Source of the DNA: Companilactobacillus allii | GTDB lineage: Bacteria; Bacillota; Bacilli; Lactobacillales; Lactobacillaceae | Assembly (NCBI RefSeq): GCF_001971585.1 | Contig: NZ_CP019323.1 | Span: 1,788,053-1,852,052, forward strand | DNA: 64,000 nucleotides | Direction: 5' to 3' | Shown here: piece after piece, positions 14,610 through 46,205 of the stretch | How positions within the stretch are numbered: the stretch's first letter is position 1 | Layout: the number at the start of each line of letters is the position of its first letter | Program-made: the position numbers and the translations under genes | Notes under the pieces: generated by a model | What the model was told of the DNA's origin: nothing | The model's database searches: none | The model's input: only the letters and a program-made list of their open reading frames with translations

Positions 14610-14819
14610 ATGGAAAAGAAAATTTTGGTAAGTGGATTACATTGTGAGAATTGCCCAAGACATATTGCTGAATTGATCAAGGACGCAAGGGGTGTAGAGA
14701 ATCTAGAAAAAGATATGGATAAAATGACTCTAACAATTTCTGGTAATTCAGATTTGGATGTTAATGAAATCAAAGAAGATTTAAGTAGTAAGCCTTTTAC
14801 TGTTGAGGAATTGATTTAA
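14610..14819 (+). CDS. HMA (heavy-metal-associated) domain protein, copper-chaperone-like
   Basis: 69-residue single-domain protein with the metal-binding CxxC in GLHCENCPRH (about residues 9-18), where the canonical form is GMTCxxC. The pattern of the ferredoxin-like HMA fold is visible through the C-terminal strand KPFTVEELI. TTGGAGG lies before the ATG. The stop shares one base with the start of the EamA transporter, so they are translationally coupled. No copper ATPase or CsoR-type repressor is nearby, so the metal and partner are unknown. The extra His residues flanking the Cys pair are noteworthy. Confidence 0.75.
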   Translation: MEKKILVSGLHCENCPRHIAELIKDARGVENLEKDMDKMTLTISGNSDLDVNEIKEDLSSKPFTVEELI

Positions 14820-15700
14820 TGAAGCAAATGACTACAAAAAAAGCTCAGCTTCTTGGTGTTGAGCTCAATTTAATATCGTTATTATTTAGTAGTATCAGTC
14901 CGGTTTTGAACAAATTTTCACTGGTTAGTTTGAATCCGGTTATTGGGGCATTATTTACCAGTGTTTTCGCGGCGATATTCAATTTGATATTGATATTGGT
15001 TATGTATCATGACTTTTCAATTATCAAAAACAAATGGGTGATTGCACTTGGATTATCAAATGCAATCGGAGTCATTTTGCAATATATCGCTTTAACGCTT
15101 CTAAGTCCTGTCACAGTTACTTTGATTGCTAGAATATATTTGGTATATGTATTTGCGCTTTCATATATATTTTTGAAGGAAAAATTGGTTAAGTGGGATT
15201 ACTTAGCTATTGCAATGTGTATTATTGGTTCAGTCTTTGTCTCAACGGGACGTATTCAAATTGACAGTATCTGGGGTATTTTATGTGCGTTTATTTACCC
15301 TCTAATGTATGCAATAAATAATATCATAGCCAAATATTTGGTCGAAGATAATAATCCTGGTAATGTATTGTTTTATAATCATTTAGTTTCGGCTGTTTTA
15401 TTATTCGTATATGCCTTGATTATTCCAGGAACATTTGGGGGTATTCAAGCTAAGGCTGTAACGTTTAATTTCTTTGGCGCATTTTTCAATGGATTTTTGT
15501 CATTGTTATTATTCTATACAAGTTTGAAATTCATCACTGCTGGTAAAGCAAATATAGTTCGTGCCTTAGGTCCAATCATTGTTATTGTATATTCTTATTT
15601 CTTCTTCCCAATTCAGATAAGTTCAAATATCATTGTCGGTGCATTATTGTTAATAGCATCTACAGCGATAGTTACATTTACACGTTCGGATACAAATTAA
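14819..15700 (+). CDS. EamA/DMT-family transporter
   Basis: 293-residue integral membrane protein with about ten hydrophobic segments arranged as two repeats of five, the drug/metabolite transporter layout. Landmarks are LSPVTVTLIARIYLVYVFALSYIFLKEKLVKWDY at the end of the first repeat, seen as several short motifs (FLKEKLV, about 120-126), and the equivalent GKANIVRALGPI in the second. The ATG overlaps the HMA stop (TAATG), with GAGGA upstream. Substrate unknown; the coupling to a metal-binding domain protein suggests a metal- or stress-linked substrate, which is only an inference. Confidence 0.8.
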   Translation: MKQMTTKKAQLLGVELNLISLLFSSISPVLNKFSLVSLNPVIGALFTSVFAAIFNLILILVMYHDFSIIKNKWVIALGLSNAIGVILQYIALTLLSPVTVTLIARIYLVYVFALSYIFLKEKLVKWDYLAIAMCIIGSVFVSTGRIQIDSIWGILCAFIYPLMYAINNIIAKYLVEDNNPGNVLFYNHLVSAVLLFVYALIIPGTFGGIQAKAVTFNFFGAFFNGFLSLLLFYTSLKFITAGKANIVRALGPIIVIVYSYFFFPIQISSNIIVGALLLIASTAIVTFTRSDTN

Positions 15701-15732: not shown

Positions 15733-15850
15733 TGAAAACGCGTGCCAAAACACAATTTTCTCCGTCTAATAAAAAGGAATCGATACTTACTTACGTAATT
15801 ATCGGTTTCTTTTGCATTGTACTCGAAAACTGAACGTGTTAAGTCGCGCT
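15733..15850 (-). repeat. nested-palindrome repeat copy R1 (reverse orientation)
   Basis: About 118 bases whose ends match copy R4 (near 42.4 kb) in reverse complement: GAAAACGCGTG then CAAAACACAATTTTCTCC at the left, and CGAAAACTGAACGTGTT at the right. The centre keeps a hairpin (ATCGATACTTAC / GTAATTATCGGT around TTACGTAA) but differs in sequence from R4. It lies just after the EamA gene. The 312-base gene-free stretch 15701-16012 consists of this copy, a partial second element (R1b) and the AT-rich leader of moaA. Confidence 0.75.
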
Positions 15851-15905
15851 CTGATTATTTGCGTTAATGCTCGGAAATTACCCGCGCATTTTCACACTCT
15901 TTTAA
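15851..15905 (-). repeat. partial repeat R1b, matching the left half of copy R2
   Basis: Reverse complement of 15856-15905 reads AGAGTGTGAAAATGCG, then GGGTAATTTCCGAGC and ATTAACGCAAATAAT, nearly identical to the first half of R2 at 18041-18092. The right half of the element is absent here. It abuts R1, giving two related elements back to back. Confidence 0.7.
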
Positions 15906-17142: not shown

Positions 17143-18039
17143 ATGTTGAGAGAAATAAATATAGATGTATTTATAAAAAGGCGTAAGGAATTAAAATTAT
17201 CACAAGTAAAGTTGTGTGAGGATATCTGCACACAAGCCACATTGAGTAAATTTGAAAATAATGGACGTGTGCCGTCATTAACAATTTTAAATAAATTGTG
17301 TGCAAGACTAGGACTTATGGTTGATGATTTATATCAAGATTCTATGGCTTCTACTGCTAAAATAAGAGACCTATTGGATCGTGCCGAAAAAGAATTAATG
17401 ATGGAGAATTATCAAACCGTAATTGATATCTTGGCAAAAGTGAAACCAGAAAAGATTGAATTCGTTCCACTTAAAACACAGTTCTACTATTTACGTGGTT
17501 TGTTGAACGCTTTGACCAATCAAAAGCCAGTAGATATAATGTTTGATTTCTCACAAATTCTTGATGACCTAGATGATAGTCATCAATCTATTTTTACACA
17601 ATTGGCGTACTTGGGATCTGGTGTTATGTATTCTAGAGAAAAGCAGAATGATAAAGCTGATTTCTATTTTAGTAAAATTTTTGATTATATCAAAGAGAAT
17701 CAAGAAAAAACTGAAGTTAAAGAAGATAAAGATAATCATTATTTAAGAATTTTAACCTTGATATTCTTTACTGCTGAATACAATGCATCTAAAGGTAAAA
17801 TCAAAATTAGCGATGAGTTAGTCAAGATGGGGATAGACTTATGTTCTGAATACCATGTGACATATTATTTACCAAGACTGAAATTACAAGCAGCACAAAA
17901 TGCCATTAGTGATAATAAATCCACAACAGAGATTGAGAGATTGATGAATGAAGCACTCGCCTTTGCACATATCAATGATAATCAAGTGGTAGAGGTTCGT
18001 GTTGCTGCTTTGAGAACACAGTTTGAAAAGAATAAATAA
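17143..18039 (+). CDS. XRE-family regulator with helical repeat C-terminus (Rgg/PlcR-like)
   Basis: 298 residues. An N-terminal helix-turn-helix (about 8-65: RRKELKLSQVKLCEDICTQ, then TLSKFENNGRVPSL) is followed by a purely helical C-terminal region of TPR type (DYIKENQE, NHYLRILTLIFFTAEYNAS and others). This is the layout of Rgg/PlcR-type regulators, which often bind peptides. TTTGGAGTG precedes the ATG. It lies inside the nitrate island between moaA and nreC, with the R2 repeat at its 3' end. The ligand and targets are unknown; no obvious short pheromone gene was found next to it. Confidence 0.8.
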   Translation: MLREINIDVFIKRRKELKLSQVKLCEDICTQATLSKFENNGRVPSLTILNKLCARLGLMVDDLYQDSMASTAKIRDLLDRAEKELMMENYQTVIDILAKVKPEKIEFVPLKTQFYYLRGLLNALTNQKPVDIMFDFSQILDDLDDSHQSIFTQLAYLGSGVMYSREKQNDKADFYFSKIFDYIKENQEKTEVKEDKDNHYLRILTLIFFTAEYNASKGKIKISDELVKMGIDLCSEYHVTYYLPRLKLQAAQNAISDNKSTTEIERLMNEALAFAHINDNQVVEVRVAALRTQFEKNK

Positions 18040-18040
18040 A

Positions 18041-18160
18041 AAGAGTGTGAAAATGCACAGGTAATTTCCGAGCATTAACGTAAATAATTTCGGTATTCAT
18101 GAAAGTGAATATCGGAATTATTTTTGTTAAGTGGAAGAAATTGTGTATTTTCACACGTTT
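18041..18160 (+). repeat. nested-palindrome repeat copy R2
   Basis: Outer arms GTGTGAAAATGCAC (18045-18058) and GTGTATTTTCACAC (18143-18156) are inverted with one mismatch. Inner arms include AATTTCGGTATTCA / TGAATATCGGAATT. The element fills the whole gap between the convergent XRE gene and nreC. It has the same architecture as R3/R4 but a different centre, so it represents a second subtype. It may serve as a bidirectional terminator. Confidence 0.75.
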
Positions 18161-18172
18161 TTGTCTATAGGA

Positions 18173-18826
18173 TCAAAACTCAATTAAATGGTGATGAATG
18201 GCATATCTAACAAGGTCTGCACGGGTATCTAGCTGCAATTTACGAATAATATTGGCTTTATGTGCTTCAACTGTTTTTGTATAAATAAACATTTGCGATG
18301 CAATCTCTTTGTTTGAATAACCTAAGGCAATTAGTGGGAAAATTTCCTTTTCACGCTTGGATAAGCCATTATATCCTTTGAGATCAACGTTTATACCGTC
18401 GGAATTAATCTGTTGAATATCAGATTTTGTTATCATAATATTTTTATCAATATAATTTTCACCATTAGAAAGTGACTTCAATGCTTTGATCAATTCATCA
18501 TCAGATGAGCTCTTCAATACATATGACATGGCACCATTATGAATTGCTTTATTAATATATTCTTGTTCTTCATGCATGGATAGAATCAGTATTCTAACAT
18601 TGGGATATTTGTCATGGATTCTCTGTGTTGTAAGTAATCCACTTTCACCAGGTGGCATACTAAGATCCATGATTAAAATGTCCACGCCACCTTGTTCAAC
18701 TCTCATATAGGTGTCAGTTCCGTTAGCTTCTTCTCCGATGACTTTAAAATTGGCTTGTTGATTTACTAAAAAAGATAATCCAGATCTAACGACAGCATGA
18801 TCGTCAGCAATCAAAACTTTATACAT
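18173..18826 (-). CDS. nreC: response regulator NreC (NarL/LuxR type)
   Basis: 217 residues. A receiver domain (IADDH at 6-10, phospho-acceptor Asp54 in LIMDLSMPPG, conserved Lys in YVLKSSS) is joined to a LuxR-type DNA-binding domain (LSKREKEIFPLIALGYSNKEIASQ as its core, near 155-178). It is the output of the NreABC oxygen/nitrate sensing system known from staphylococci, which activates nar genes. GAGGGGGGAAATTT precedes the ATG. Twelve bases after nreB, last gene of the nreABC unit. Confidence 0.9.
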   Translation of the reverse strand: MYKVLIADDHAVVRSGLSFLVNQQANFKVIGEEANGTDTYMRVEQGGVDILIMDLSMPPGESGLLTTQRIHDKYPNVRILILSMHEEQEYINKAIHNGAMSYVLKSSSDDELIKALKSLSNGENYIDKNIMITKSDIQQINSDGINVDLKGYNGLSKREKEIFPLIALGYSNKEIASQMFIYTKTVEAHKANIIRKLQLDTRADLVRYAIHHHLIEF

Positions 18827-21510: not shown

Positions 21511-21625
21511 GAGTGTGACAAAACACGTTCAGTTTTCGTTTATAAGTCCAAAGAGCCGGTATTTACGTAAGTAAATATCGGTTTTTTGGACTTATAGGGA
21601 GAAAATTGTGTTATGGCACACGTTT
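21511..21625 (+). repeat. nested-palindrome repeat copy R3
   Basis: Positions 21515-21612 are identical over 98 bases to 42391-42488 (R4). Inner arms TATAAGTCCAA / TTGGACTTATA and CCGGTATTTAC / GTAAATATCGG around GTAA form a long hairpin; outer arms GTGACAAAACAC and GTGTTATGGCAC are imperfect. It lies downstream of the feoAB operon end and upstream of moaC. A further fragment, ACGTTTTCACTGCGAGTTTGA near 21652, resembles the flank of R1, in pieces. Confidence 0.85.
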
Positions 21626-21686
21626 TCTTTTAGATTTATATGGAAAAAGTTACGTTTTCACTGCGAGTTTGATTAGAACAATATTC

Positions 21687-21866
21687 TTACAGAATCCTTT
21701 TAAGTATTTGCTGTTTAGAAGCCTTATCGGCCATTAATTTGGCCTCACATTTGTAATCACAAGCAGCACATTTACCTTGTTTGGATTTTTGAGTAACTTT
21801 GAATATCTCATATCCGGCAAGTCCCACAATAATAGCGGCAATTAATATATTAATAAACAATGTCAT
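21687..21866 (-). CDS. FeoB-associated Cys-rich membrane protein
   Basis: 59 residues from ATG 21866 (GAGG upstream). One N-terminal membrane segment (LFINILIAAIIVGLAGYEIF) is followed by a short tail with three Cys in GKCAACDYKC. It has the size and motif layout of the small proteins found after feoB in Firmicutes. It begins about 20 bases after the feoB stop and ends the feoA-feoB unit. The upstream open frame beginning at 21974 overlaps feoB and lacks an RBS, so it was not used. The role in ferrous iron uptake is inferred from the association. Confidence 0.8.
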   Translation of the reverse strand: MTLFINILIAAIIVGLAGYEIFKVTQKSKQGKCAACDYKCEAKLMADKASKQQILKRIL

Positions 21867-40859: not shown

Positions 40860-42035
40860 ATGGAAAGTAAATCTAAATCAATAATTGCTTTGGCCATGGG
40901 TACTTTATCCATGATGATTTGTTTTATGGTTTGGCTGAGTTTATCGCCGTTAGTTGGAGTTATTCTTTCACATAATGGAATTGAGTTAAGTGAATTTCAG
41001 CGAACATTCTTGTTAGCAACACCAATTTTATTAGGTTCAATTATGCGTATCCCAATGGGAATCTGGAGTGATAAATTCGGTGGCAAGAAAGTTTACATTA
41101 TATTAATGCTGTTCTTGATCATTCCTGTGCTTATGGTTCCTAGAGTCAATTCATTTGGAATGATGATAGTTGCTGCATTGCTACTTGGTATGAGTGGGAC
41201 GTCATTTGCAGTTGGTATTTCGTATGTTACCGGCTTTTTTCCACCAGAAAAACAAGGATTAGTCCTTGGAATTGCCGGTGTTGGTAATATCGGTACTGCG
41301 TTTTCATCGTTCTTTTTCCCAAGAATGGAGAAGGTATGGGGATTAAACAGTGTATTTTATACATTGATCATCTTATTAATTATTTTTGTATTATTGATGT
41401 TCTTTATAGCTCCAGAATCAAACAAAAATGAAGATGCTAGTATGCTCAAGTCTTTGGCTGTTGCTAAAGAAAAGGATACTTGGTACCTTGCATTGTTCTA
41501 CTTTCTAACATTTGGTTTATTTATGGCTATGACTAACTTATTATCAACTTTTATGGTCAATTTATTTAATAGTAGTTTAATAGATGCTGGATTATGGGCA
41601 GCAATATTTGCTGTTATTGGTACATTGACACGTCCATTGGGTGGTTATCTTTCAGATAAAATTCGTCCGATGACACTTTTAAAGTATGATTTTGTCGCAA
41701 TTACTGTTTCTGCAATAATTTTAGGGATTTTCCTAAAGACACAGGCCATTTTTCTTATTATGATGATAGTAATAGGTGTCTTAGTTGGATTAGGTAATGG
41801 AATTATTTTCAAGATGGTTCCGTTCGTGTCTGACAGTAACACTGGTGCCGTTACAGGATTTGTTGGCGCTATGGGTGGACTAGGTGGATATTTCCCACCA
41901 ATTATCCTGGGTGTGATTAAACAGGCTACTGGCACTTATGAACTAGGGATATATTTAATCGCTGTATTTGCTATAATATGTTTAGTATTACTACAGAGAG
42001 TATATATTTCTGGAGAACACAAAATTGTTAAGTAA
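40860..42035 (+). CDS. narK: nitrate/nitrite transporter NarK
   Basis: 391-residue MFS transporter with about 12 hydrophobic segments. Nitrate/nitrite porter features: GIWSDKFGGKKVY between segments 2 and 3, and the Gly-rich signature region GISYVTGFFPPEKQGLVLGIAG (central pieces FFPPEKQG and GIAGVGNIG), with its counterpart GAVTGFVGAMGGLGGY in the second half. AAGGGGGGC before the ATG. Next to the Moco and nar genes, it imports nitrate and/or exports nitrite. Confidence 0.93.
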   Translation: MESKSKSIIALAMGTLSMMICFMVWLSLSPLVGVILSHNGIELSEFQRTFLLATPILLGSIMRIPMGIWSDKFGGKKVYIILMLFLIIPVLMVPRVNSFGMMIVAALLLGMSGTSFAVGISYVTGFFPPEKQGLVLGIAGVGNIGTAFSSFFFPRMEKVWGLNSVFYTLIILLIIFVLLMFFIAPESNKNEDASMLKSLAVAKEKDTWYLALFYFLTFGLFMAMTNLLSTFMVNLFNSSLIDAGLWAAIFAVIGTLTRPLGGYLSDKIRPMTLLKYDFVAITVSAIILGIFLKTQAIFLIMMIVIGVLVGLGNGIIFKMVPFVSDSNTGAVTGFVGAMGGLGGYFPPIILGVIKQATGTYELGIYLIAVFAIICLVLLQRVYISGEHKIVK

Positions 42036-42055
42036 TGGAATTGAGGTGCAACTTT

Positions 42056-42379
42056 ATGAGTGAGAATGAACAAACAGAGAAAAAAGAAAATGCCGTTATG
42101 GAGGCACTAGAGGATGTTATTGACCCAGAACTTGGAATCGATATCGTTAATCTAGGCTTGATATATGGGATTGAGATCAAAGATAATCTTTGTACCGTGA
42201 CTATGACATTAACAACTATGGGATGCCCATTAAGTGATATGATTTCTAACGATATCCATAATGCCGCTGAATCAGTTGAAGGTGTCGATTCGTGTGACAT
42301 CAATTTGGTTTGGTATCCAATTTGGGATATGAGTAAAATGAGTCGTTTTGCCCAAATTGCACTTGGTATTGGTGGTTAA
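42056..42379 (+). CDS. MIP18 (DUF59) family protein, SufT/PaaD-like Fe-S assembly factor
   Basis: 107 residues from ATG 42056 (GAGGTG upstream); the 42035 start lacks an RBS. Family hallmarks: LEDVIDPELGIDIVNLGLIYG and MTLTTMGCPLSDMI with the conserved Cys. Proteins of this family help deliver Fe-S clusters. Last gene of the nar-fec-moaE-moaD-narK run, and the R4 repeat follows, so it may support Fe-S loading of NarGH or MoaA; that is inference. Confidence 0.9.
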   Translation: MSENEQTEKKENAVMEALEDVIDPELGIDIVNLGLIYGIEIKDNLCTVTMTLTTMGCPLSDMISNDIHNAAESVEGVDSCDINLVWYPIWDMSKMSRFAQIALGIGG

Positions 42380-42386
42380 CATTTGA

Positions 42387-42504
42387 GAGCGTGACAAAAC
42401 ACGTTCAGTTTTCGTTTATAAGTCCAAAGAGCCGGTATTTACGTAAGTAAATATCGGTTTTTTGGACTTATAGGGAGAAAATTGTGTTTTGTCACGCGTT
42501 TTCA
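42387..42504 (+). repeat. nested-palindrome repeat copy R4
   Basis: The outer arms GCGTGACAAAACAC (42389-42402) and GTGTTTTGTCACGC (42484-42497) form a perfect 14-base inverted repeat. Inside, TATAAGTCCAA / TTGGACTTATA and CCGGTATTTAC / GTAAATATCGG form the main hairpin with GTAA at the tip. It shares 98 identical bases with R3 (21515-21612). It lies 8 bases beyond the last gene of the nitrate island and may act as its terminator. Between it and gdhA (42505-42606) only AT-rich leader is seen. Confidence 0.88.
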
Positions 42505-44050: not shown

Positions 44051-44911
44051 ATGGCAAATTTAAATGGTTTAACTGATACATACACACTCAGTAATGGTGT
44101 AAAAATTCCTATTGTTGGGTTCGGAACTTGGCAAACACCAGATGGTGATGTTGCTAAAGAAAGCGTTAAAGCTGCGATTGAGGCTGGATATCATCATATT
44201 GATACTGCTGCAGCCTATGGCAATGAAGATAGTGTAGGAGAGGGAATTAAGGCTTCAGGAATTAAACGTGATGACTTATTCTTGACTACAAAGTTGTGGA
44301 ATGATGATCATGGATATGATTCAACTAAAAAAGCACTTGATCATTCATTGTTAGAATTAGGTGTAGATTATGTTGATCTATATTTGATTCACTGGCCAAA
44401 TCCTATTAAGTTCCGTGATAATTGGAAAGAAGTTAACGCAGAAACTTGGCGTGCAATGGAAGAAGTACTTAAAGCCGGTAAAACACGTGCAATTGGTATT
44501 TCAAACTTCCGTCCACAACATATGGATGAACTCTTGAAGACTGCAACAGTTACACCAATGGTTAATCAAATTTTCCTTAACCCAAGTGATCTCCAACCCA
44601 AGGTTGTCGCTTATAACAATCAACACAATATTTTGAGTGAAGCTTATAGTCCACTTGGCACTGGAAAAATCTTCCAAGTTGAAGAATTGAAAGAGATGGC
44701 AACACGTTATGGTAAGTCAGTTGCACAATTAGTTTTACGTTGGTCACTACAACATGGATTCTTGCCACTTCCTAAGTCAGTACATGCCGATAGGATTAAG
44801 GAAAATGGTCAAATCTTTGATTTTGAAATTTCTAGTGATGATATGCTAACTATCGATGGATTGCACGGACTTGCAGGAATTGCTAATGATCCTGATACTG
44901 CTAATTTCTAA
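44051..44911 (+). CDS. aldo/keto reductase
   Basis: 286-residue NAD(P)H-dependent TIM-barrel oxidoreductase. Catalytic tetrad: Asp in HHIDTAAAYGNED, Tyr in the same stretch, Lys in TTKLWNDDHG and His in LIHWPNP. Signature AIGISNF and SVAQLVLRWSLQHG are present. AAAGGGAGAG before the ATG. Substrate not predictable; related proteins reduce 2,5-diketo-D-gluconate or methylglyoxal. Followed by the R5 hairpin. Confidence 0.92.
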   Translation: MANLNGLTDTYTLSNGVKIPIVGFGTWQTPDGDVAKESVKAAIEAGYHHIDTAAAYGNEDSVGEGIKASGIKRDDLFLTTKLWNDDHGYDSTKKALDHSLLELGVDYVDLYLIHWPNPIKFRDNWKEVNAETWRAMEEVLKAGKTRAIGISNFRPQHMDELLKTATVTPMVNQIFLNPSDLQPKVVAYNNQHNILSEAYSPLGTGKIFQVEELKEMATRYGKSVAQLVLRWSLQHGFLPLPKSVHADRIKENGQIFDFEISSDDMLTIDGLHGLAGIANDPDTANF

Positions 44912-44913
44912 TA

Positions 44914-45052
44914 GAGTTTGAAAAAACGCGTTCAATTTTTGAGTATAATGCAAAATAAGTAGATATTCACGTAAGTGGATGTCTACTTATTTTTTTTTTA
45001 TTAAACAGGAAAATTTGCATTTTTCCACACGTTTCCACTGTAAATTTGAGTA
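44914..45052 (+). repeat. nested-palindrome repeat copy R5 (divergent)
   Basis: Inner stem AATAAGTAGATATTCAC / GTGGATGTCTACTTATT around GTAA, followed by nine T, makes an excellent terminator. Flanks resemble R1 and R4: AAAACGCGTTCAATTTTTGAG on the left, in pieces, and CCACACGTTTCC...TAAATTTGAGT on the right. It fills the gap between the aldo/keto reductase and the convergent AI-2E family gene. It shows the element working as a 3' end. Confidence 0.7.
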
Positions 45053-45065
45053 GAAACGAAGTTTA

Positions 45066-46205
45066 TTACGATTTCTTTTTGACTACAACAGTTGATTTCG
45101 CTTCTTTATTTAAAGTGGCATTTTTAACTAATTGATAAATTGTAGCGGCAATCGGAACACCGAGTAACATTCCAATGATGCCAGCAACCCCACTACCAAT
45201 AGTAATGGCAGCAAGAACAAAGATTCCTGGTAATCCAATAGAACCACCAACGACACGTGGATAGATAAGATTACTTTCAAGTTGTTGCAAGATGATGATA
45301 TATACAACAAACAAAATTCCTTGAAGTGGTGAAGTGACTGCTATAAGAACAAATCCAACAGCACCACCTATCCAGGCACCGATCATTGGAACTAGAGCTG
45401 TTATACCAACTAGAGCACCAATTGATAAAGCGTTTGGAAATTTAAAAATCCACATGCCCAATGCACATAGTGTACCAAGAATGAAAGCTTCGATAACTTG
45501 GCCACTTATGAAACTAGAAAATGCTTTGTCGGCTACTCCAATTACATAGTATGTTTTTTTCATAATTTTTTTGGGGACAAATGTGTTCAGTACACGATTA
45601 ATTCCTTGACCAATTTTTTCTTTACCACTTACCAAATATATTGCAAAGGTAAATGCAAGTATGAAGTTGAAGAGTCCTTTTGATAAACTACCAAAAATAT
45701 TTATAGAAGAAGAAAATACTCCGGATACGCCAGAAGAAACGAATTTCATCAATTTGGATTGGATACTTGCCCAATCGATCTGGCTTGTCTTAAGTTGGGA
45801 CGCGATGAGACTTGCTTGATTGGAGTTATTCAGCCATTTATTAAAGTTATTCAAAAGATTCGGAAGACTAGAAAAGAAACTACTAATTGCAGTGATGAAT
45901 TGAGGTAGTACTAGACGTAATACCCAAGCAATTATGGCGATTATTATCACAATTGATAACAACAAAGCTACAGGACGCCTTGTTCCGATTGCAAATTTAT
46001 TCTTTGCCTTAGGCCAAAAGCGTTTTTCTAGCATACTACTTAATAAATTTATACAATAAGCCAAGGCTGCACCTATGATAAGTGGTAATGAGATTGAATA
46101 AATTATTTTTAACAGGCCTAAAATTTGTCCGGGATATACAAGTAACACTAAAAATATGGCGACTAGGGAACTGTATCTTATTATTTCTTGTTTGGTAAGT
46201 TTCAT
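45066..46205 (-). CDS. AI-2E family transporter
   Basis: 379-residue membrane protein with about seven to eight hydrophobic segments and the family C-terminal pattern ALVGITALVPMIGAWIGG and LESNLIYPRVVGGSIGLPGIFVLAAITIG (seen as pieces NLIYPRVVG and GLPGI). The start is ATG 46205 with GAGAGGAAA upstream. The family includes TqsA-type exporters and Na+/H+ or sporulation-related permeases, so the substrate is uncertain. Confidence 0.9.
   Translation of the reverse strand: MKLTKQEIIRYSSLVAIFLVLLVYPGQILGLLKIIYSISLPLIIGAALAYCINLLSSMLEKRFWPKAKNKFAIGTRRPVALLLSIVIIIAIIAWVLRLVLPQFITAISSFFSSLPNLLNNFNKWLNNSNQASLIASQLKTSQIDWASIQSKLMKFVSSGVSGVFSSSINIFGSLSKGLFNFILAFTFAIYLVSGKEKIGQGINRVLNTFVPKKIMKKTYYVIGVADKAFSSFISGQVIEAFILGTLCALGMWIFKFPNALSIGALVGITALVPMIGAWIGGAVGFVLIAVTSPLQGILFVVYIIILQQLESNLIYPRVVGGSIGLPGIFVLAAITIGSGVAGIIGMLLGVPIAATIYQLVKNATLNKEAKSTVVVKKKS

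Follow-up and report, generated by a model that had tools for sequence, protein, structure and literature searches.

A dispersed hairpin family at gene ends in Lactobacillaceae and its probable recruitment as a terminator in Companilactobacillus

Introduction

Several described bacterial repeats resemble the element studied here. The sections of PMC2267715 on Efa-1 present this Enterococcus repeat as a 163-bp intergenic element with 65 members that forms a pair of adjacent stem-loops, and EFAR is listed among MITE-like palindromes in the part of PMC3733652 that covers them. The SPRITE repeat of Streptococcus pneumoniae is described in sections of PMC3049150 as a terminator-like repeat close to the 3' ends of coding sequences (CDSs) and enriched between convergent genes; co-option as terminators was suggested, and a target-site duplication (TSD) was not established. 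The same sections portray BOX of S. pneumoniae as modular, with repeatable inner modules and a predicted RNA structure, and say that BOX and RUP cause TSDs. REP/GTAG palindromes, as treated in parts of PMC3733652, lie less than 20 bp from the 3' ends of open reading frames (ORFs), and the GTAG termini often supply a TAG stop.

Here we describe a palindromic element of Companilactobacillus allii, represented by positions 42387-42504 of a 64-kb window, i.e., the whole stretch of 64,000 nucleotides that was analyzed. Like EFAR/Efa-1 it occurs in Lactobacillales and is intergenic, a likeness drawn from the published descriptions; EFAR could be a relative. With SPRITE it shares the character of a terminator-like repeat near CDS 3' ends, a likeness of function, but SPRITE comprises 30 elements with an 18-bp duplex and a U-rich tract, and the sections of PMC3049150 concerned report neither a start exact to the stop codon nor such interior motifs. 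The boxA-boxB(n)-boxC arrangement of BOX may have a counterpart in the repeatable 3' module of our element; the distance from BOX to the nearest gene decays gradually according to the same sections. We saw no sign of TSDs of the BOX and RUP kind, in a test that covers duplications longer than a few bases.

REP also adjoins gene 3' ends and supplies TAG stops (PMC3733652, in the part cited above), so stop-codon adjacency is known in principle. The REP units are 20-40 bp long and tagged GTAG or CGTC, in contrast to a core of about 120 bp that starts with GAGYG after an A; our element has no tagged palindrome of this size, and Y1 transposases do not track it. A literature search, with subscription papers mostly outside it, returned no description of this palindrome family. 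What we consider new is the family, its breadth, and a contrast of arrangements pointing to replacement of native terminators, EFAR having been compared by description.

Results

Five copies in the window

A preliminary description had proposed five such palindromes in the window. The proposal is borne out: all five are matched by covariance model R1, with E values from 1.9e-34 to 2.4e-16, and the remaining five R1 matches in the window at E ≤ 1 are opposite-strand hits at the same five places. The training set of R1 included the copies at 42387 (L001) and 21511 (L005), the other three window copies being outside it. The same five were recovered with a second model, R2, in whose training set the 42387 copy was present. 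The identity reported for two copies 21 kb apart also proved exact, over 98 bases (21515-21612 and 42391-42488). The features are as follows.

42387..42504, + strand: copy 1, core element, starting GAGCGTGACA... and finishing ...CACGCGTTTTCA; R1 140.3 bits, E 1.9e-34; fold z -14
42415..42474, + strand: inner helix of copy 1 in the minimum-free-energy fold, two 28-base arms and a 4-base loop, with inverted repeat I3 within
42458..42463, + strand: T-run TTTTTT, 3' of the inner GC-rich stem in the sense direction, from the sequence and from detector counts over all cores
21511..21628, + strand: copy 2, with 98 bases identical to copy 1; R1 134.1 bits
21687..21866, - strand: small ORF with its 3' end towards copy 2; in relatives the gap holds different hairpins (synteny)
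15733..15851, - strand: copy 3, antisense; R1 101.3 bits; 32 nt beyond the end of the EamA transporter gene 14819-15700
15854..15899, - strand: older copy of the second subfamily, 5' half only, adjoining copy 3
18043..18163, + strand: copy 4, second subfamily, CGAGCATTAA...; R1 77.5 bits, R2 111.1 bits
44914..45037, + strand: copy 5; R1 71.6 bits; 2 nt past the stop of the aldo/keto reductase gene 44051-44911 (PF00248)
45038..45070, + strand: partial 3' module behind copy 5, CTGTAAATTTGAGTAGAAACGAAGTT..., from alignment to the 3' module; end approximate

Placement at the 3' ends of transcription units, as first proposed, holds in the sense direction for the copies at 18043, 42387 and 44914, which start 3, 7 and 2 nt past a stop codon. 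Copy 1 follows the gene for an iron-sulfur assembly protein (42035-42379, Pfam PF01883), and copy 4 follows 17143-18039 and is faced by the convergent 18173-18826. The copies at 15733 and 21511 also lie beyond a gene end, yet antisense, at 32 and 58 nt; the latter is antisense to adjoining minus-strand genes, and the distance is from its end to the stop of the small ORF 21687-21866. The other half of the older copy beside copy 3 was not seen there, as if it had been partly replaced by another element.

The core extends from GAGYG to CRCGTTT and is preceded by A in 80 of 85 copies. It measures about 118-124 bases, and the element is longer than first described, since many copies continue into a 3' module of about 45 bases, CACTGCAAGTTTGAGTAGAAAARGAGTTATGTCACAACCCC, which is sometimes shortened or trailed by a further partial unit. 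Subfamilies diverge internally, and the motif pair CGAGYATTAA ... TTAAGCGGA is retained in many copies. From its sequence, the T-run of copy 1 would make a terminator-like tail inside a longer helix.

Copy number and distribution

In the C. allii genome (2.53 Mb, two contigs; the window is 1788053-1852052 of contig 1) the element occupies at least 108 places, and the idea that the window might hold the only copies fails. A nucleotide search with the 118-base query gave at least 68 match lines, with the best 40 of 106 candidates scored. Model R1, built from 30 copies, gave 141 lines among the best 150 of 2128 candidates, of which 98 were entered once 42 overlaps on the opposite strand and a single line with E 0.05 had been set aside. 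They fall into 95 places that do not overlap; 85 of these score ≥ 50 bits and underlie the 85-copy counts given below, from which the 10 weaker places were excluded. This genome search missed two copies, the one at 18043 and one in L181. An exact motif pattern was found at 48 places, compared to none with a reversed control, and 11 of the 13 listed are absent from the 95.

Related species also carry the family. R1 matched 30 of 36 Companilactobacillus genomes at E ≤ 1e-3, with copy numbers that vary widely among species; of the six negative genomes, G007 has R2 matches. Over 295 genomes of the order, taking the best 12 candidates per genome, R1 found three of the four sampled Companilactobacillus and two weak matches in the other 291 Lactobacillales. 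R2, built from 29 copies of several species (two from a second genus) and run within the family with the best nine candidates per genome, matched 180 of 397 Lactobacillaceae genomes in 21 of 40 genera at E ≤ 1e-5, these E values being rough. Named carriers include Lactiplantibacillus xiangfangensis, L. pingfangensis and C. jidongensis, together with plasmids of Pediococcus damnosus and Latilactobacillus curvatus. None of nine R2 matches at E ≤ 1 fell on the seven named non-Lactobacillaceae loci among 25 sources. With Rfam 15 at gathering score, no family reached threshold on the element and the window gave only a tRNA; 19 loci searched at E ≤ 1 or 5 gave sub-threshold matches only.

Anchoring to stop codons

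Most copies start at a stop codon. In C. allii, the stop of a sense ORF (90 codons or more) lies no more than 25 nt from the start in 71 of 85 copies, against 8.8% for random intergenic points and 3% for any point in the window, and 14 copies lack such anchoring. The corresponding counts, with ORFs of at least 60 codons, are 46 of 54 in four Companilactobacillus relatives and 19 of 25 outside the genus; the null was made for the 90-codon C. allii test alone. All ORFs came from a mechanical finder. The 54 copies were taken from 62 distinct places, one contig-edge and seven weak copies being left out, and the 25 matches include two training copies and one unclassified Lactobacillus MAG. On the annotated plasmids of P. 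damnosus and L. curvatus the copy starts 1 and 11 bases beyond the CDS end.

The element's first G completes a TAG stop in 19 copies, and in four the gene stops at a TGA within the element. Judged by the ORFs on either side, 50 of the 95 places lie between convergent genes, 32 are co-directional sense, eight co-directional antisense, one lies between divergent genes and four have no assignment. Since most copies lie at or just behind a stop and point along the gene, transcription would place them at the beginning of its 3' UTR.

A conserved RNA-like helix

Copy 1 has a single-strand fold of -66.4 kcal/mol in sense and -47.5 in antisense, compared to a mean of -20.9 for shuffled sequences. The weakest fold among the five window copies is that of 15733-15851 (z -2.6), which 4 of 200 shuffles equal. 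An alignment of 72 distinct copies, 62 from the C. allii genome and 10 from relatives, has 95.5% of its cells paired, and both partners have changed in 35 of 42 pairs (30 of 74 rows trained the model). None of 500 shuffles attains any of the five values measured, and when partners are displaced by 1-3 columns pairing falls to 40-53%. For 22 copies from outside Companilactobacillus, none used in training, the values are 94.8% paired cells, 33 of 38 pairs with both-side changes, and again no shuffle out of 500 as high. Because a model guided both alignments, these counts lean towards the structure. Chance is ruled out by copy number and covariation, and the helix is real and maintained. In another genus, one copy is common to the same site of two species with nearly identical flanks, and there the outer stem carries two compensatory double changes and one change to G-U.

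Arm correction during replication is another possible source of covariation. At four genomic places (953187, 42922, 963497 and 1398869) a partial copy close behind the element repeats its locus-specific arm sequence, which suggests duplication in place or correction between palindrome arms. Recurring arms of this kind, as at 953187 and 42922, would be expected of DNA-level palindromes that are kept by such correction and are functionally neutral, but G-U/U-G cells outnumber A-C/C-A cells 262 to 67, about 4:1, and still 145 to 67, or 2:1, without two near-fixed G-U columns. This excess indicates a helix that matters in sense RNA. A neutral palindrome would also not explain that a further terminator is rarer behind elements than at other gene ends (see below), and we consider this explanation improbable.

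Covariation and stop-codon anchoring together suggest transcribed RNA structures of 3' ends. Such structures could also constitute a 3'-UTR-derived small RNA family, or a protein-binding 3' tag on many mRNAs, with termination as a side effect. The sense-strand structure, the interior motifs conserved over 21 genera and the anchoring itself would suit that function; the variable copy number and the 6 of 36 genus genomes without an R1 match (one of which, G007, has R2 matches) fit it poorly, and it seems unlikely to us. In other genera we observed copies followed by hairpins of the common form GAGTCTGGGAC...GTCCCAGACTC (L357, L361, L372, L378 and L042), whose 3' arm has a second possible pairing partner in the 5' end of the element, GAGTGGGACAAAA.

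Terminator-like cores

Throughout, terminators were detected as a stem of at least 7 pairs followed by 6 T in 8 positions. In C. allii the detector was positive in 69 of 85 sense cores, 36 of 85 antisense cores and 1 of 85 of the following 150-nt segments. The four relatives gave 35 of 54 sense cores, 28 of 54 antisense cores and 2 of 54 downstream segments. Outside the genus, it found a terminator in 1 of 12 cores and a separate one downstream in 7 of 12. Background in the window was 9 of 300 random 118-mers and 7 of 300 random 150-mers. A hairpin with GC and a following U-run, the hallmark of an intrinsic terminator, is thus found in most sense cores of C. allii, and the proposal that the element doubles as a terminator agrees with a core that is predicted to be built like one. 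Because antisense cores are frequently terminator-like as well, direction is less clear than placement. A consensus scan for terminators on pieces of the window recognized copy 5 well, and copies 1 and 2 by the outer arm only.

Gene ends without an element and with a gap of at least 60 had a terminator in 7 of 25 cases in the window and 13 of 43 in the relatives' stretches (7 of 56 and 22 of 109 without the gap condition). The detector is insensitive, missing two of the four relatives' hairpins at the site of copy 5 that are plain by eye; evenly applied, it finds a second terminator behind C. allii elements far more rarely than at other gene ends. In Companilactobacillus the elements appear to have taken over the ending of transcription, as judged from these predicted structures.

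Occupied and unoccupied sites in relatives

Synteny holds around each of the five sites in four relatives (G008, G027, G015 and G010), and R2 was run on these stretches. At the sites of copy 5 (site 2) and copy 4 (site 4) none of the four has a family member; T-run hairpins are plain by eye and were detected in 2 of 4 and 4 of 4, respectively. At the site of copy 1 (site 1), G015 and G010 carry a family member (52.9 and 54.9 bits) and then a separate terminator, G027 has a terminator alone, and G008 has another large palindrome followed by a terminator. Hairpin plus terminator and hairpin alone therefore both occur at this site within Companilactobacillus. At the site of copy 3 (site 3), antisense members are present in G015 (two matches), G010 and, weakly, G008 (28.8 bits, E 7e-4), with a plain terminator in G027. 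At the site of copy 2 (site 5), G027 has a weak, reduced relative (30.1 bits) and the others have different hairpins or a gene-bearing insertion. A family member is present in 6 of the 20 combinations of site and relative, two of them weak. Loss of native terminators is what we read from these syntenic sites, i.e., the five in the window.

At sites 1 and 3, what G010 and G015 carry had been taken for palindromes of other families, a view given up because R2 matches them as members. The G008 palindrome behind the iron-sulfur protein gene (L256) gave no R2 match; other large palindromes occupy this slot also in G001 (L260) and G024 (L270). In G008, three gene ends close together on one contig (L285 from 13610, L349 from 4497 and 7942) have the simple hairpin GAGTCATACYTAACTTGATGTAAYARTAYCAAGTTARRTATGRCTC with a nearly unchanged loop, and plain terminators in this genome may be dispersed repeats too. 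In the same genome (L285, 16111-16871), a 52-base terminator stretch occurs twice, the starts being separated by 709 bases; the insertion between the two contains a 115-residue ORF whose product presumably resembles MazF/PemK-type toxins.

Multiplication and mobility

The resemblance proposed to repeats of the BOX/RUP kind is apt: the element is a dispersed modular palindrome family, SPRITE-like too, in which near-identical full-length copies sit in unrelated flanks right up to the element ends. Of 49 copies in relatives with an identified upstream gene, five lie behind an orthologue (78-94% identity) of a C. allii gene that also bears an element, in a comparison with 73 listed C. allii copies. 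As the R1 lists are incomplete, this sharing of host genes is a lower bound. The copies at these five gene pairs are 65-69% alike, no more than random between-species pairs. Repeated insertion at the same slots would give this pattern, and so would gene conversion within species. The identical copies first taken as a sign of recent mobility or gene conversion could come from either, and mobility of the element as such is uncertain.

Vertically inherited 3'-end elements that seldom or never transpose, and that recombination or gene conversion keeps uniform in each species, would account for the slots shared in two of four relatives at site 1, three at site 3 (one weak, all in the same antisense direction) and one, weak, at site 5. 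The shared sites, including the unusual antisense copy, weaken the case for mobility. One host gene common to G010 and G015, the site kept between two species of another genus, the near-identical copies within species and the random-level likeness of copies at the five shared host genes fit this account as well. It does not readily explain sites 2 and 4, where the four relatives lack a family member, the wide variation of copy number, or full-length near-identical copies with flanks unrelated up to the ends. We regard it as a serious candidate, though a less than even bet.

The earlier suggestion of a MITE found no support. Direct repeats between flanks showed no excess (5.99 against 6.22 when permuted, 1959 of 2000 permutations being as high), in a test that is blind to duplications of a few bases and works with an ill-defined element 3' end; the single long direct repeat, at 1972779, is an exception. 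Copy number did not correlate with Y1_Tnp, the one transposase family tested, which is absent from the high-copy genomes G002, G020, G008 and G006 and present in others, and no autonomous relative of the element was seen. A classical MITE mobilized in trans and inserting anywhere, with stop bias arising from selection against insertions elsewhere, would be short and dispersed with near-identical copies, as observed; imperfect terminal inverted repeats are visible by eye in copies with the 3' module (many copies end earlier), and an older half copy lies beside copy 3. Set against these features are the absence of excess direct repeats between flanks, the transposase distribution and an anchoring far tighter than at random intergenic points, which make such an origin unlikely.

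Other routes were considered and rejected. Insertion into a terminator loop, raised by complementary flanks of young copies, gave no excess in permutation tests, and the right-hand flank of several young copies is a further module and not a paired flank. Y1 transposase as mobilizer was dismissed for its lack of correlation. As to phage carriage, an out-of-genus copy had no phage match, two weak matches were to Acinetobacter phages, and one viral pattern match showed no hairpin by eye.

Plasmid copies were found in C. allii, P. damnosus and L. curvatus. The plasmid locus of C. allii WiKim39 has the same copy and flank as the chromosomal locus L008. This 3.6-kb p1_WK39 (NZ_CP099482.1, L212) carries a synthetase end, nth and a penicillin-binding gene of what seems to be the chromosomal neighborhood; filed as a plasmid, it may be a chromosomal fragment circularized in assembly. 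The class II tRNA synthetase of L008, which we take to be AsnS, is 83% identical to that of the small genome G034 (L008/L225/L226) and only 46-50% identical to the best match in the other 34 genomes of the genus, i.e., there are two enzyme lineages.

Discussion

The explanation we favor, with a probability of about 0.65, is a dispersed 3'-UTR hairpin that occurs across Lactobacillaceae and was recruited as a terminator in Companilactobacillus. In sense RNA its core of about 118-124 bases would form a single long hairpin, nested and with conserved motifs in its interior, and copies that begin with GAGYG after an A, at or just behind the stop codon, would form the first part of the 3' UTR. Outside Companilactobacillus the core would often precede a separate terminator. 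Within that genus a U-run mostly lies behind the predicted inner helix, and separate terminators are seldom detected. Most likely the element itself brings transcription to a stop and forms a cap at the 3' end, which may protect the mRNA. Copies would multiply within species by insertion, gene conversion or both; we infer this copying from their distribution.

A wider reading is conceivable, and we hold it tentatively: an undescribed superfamily of 3'-UTR RNAs in at least 21 genera that multiplies in a mobile-like manner, lands at stop codons and has displaced native terminators in one genus. If true, this would be selfish DNA turned terminator. Interspersed palindromes have long been suspected to act as terminators, and here related species show both arrangements, a hairpin ahead of a separate terminator (in other genera and, at site 1, in two relatives) and a hairpin alone. 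Whether dispersed repeats are recruited as terminators can thus be tested directly in harmless food bacteria. The annotation of 3' ends would also change, given a structured element that lacks an Rfam match and is matched in 180 of the 397 genomes analyzed from a family of industrial importance.
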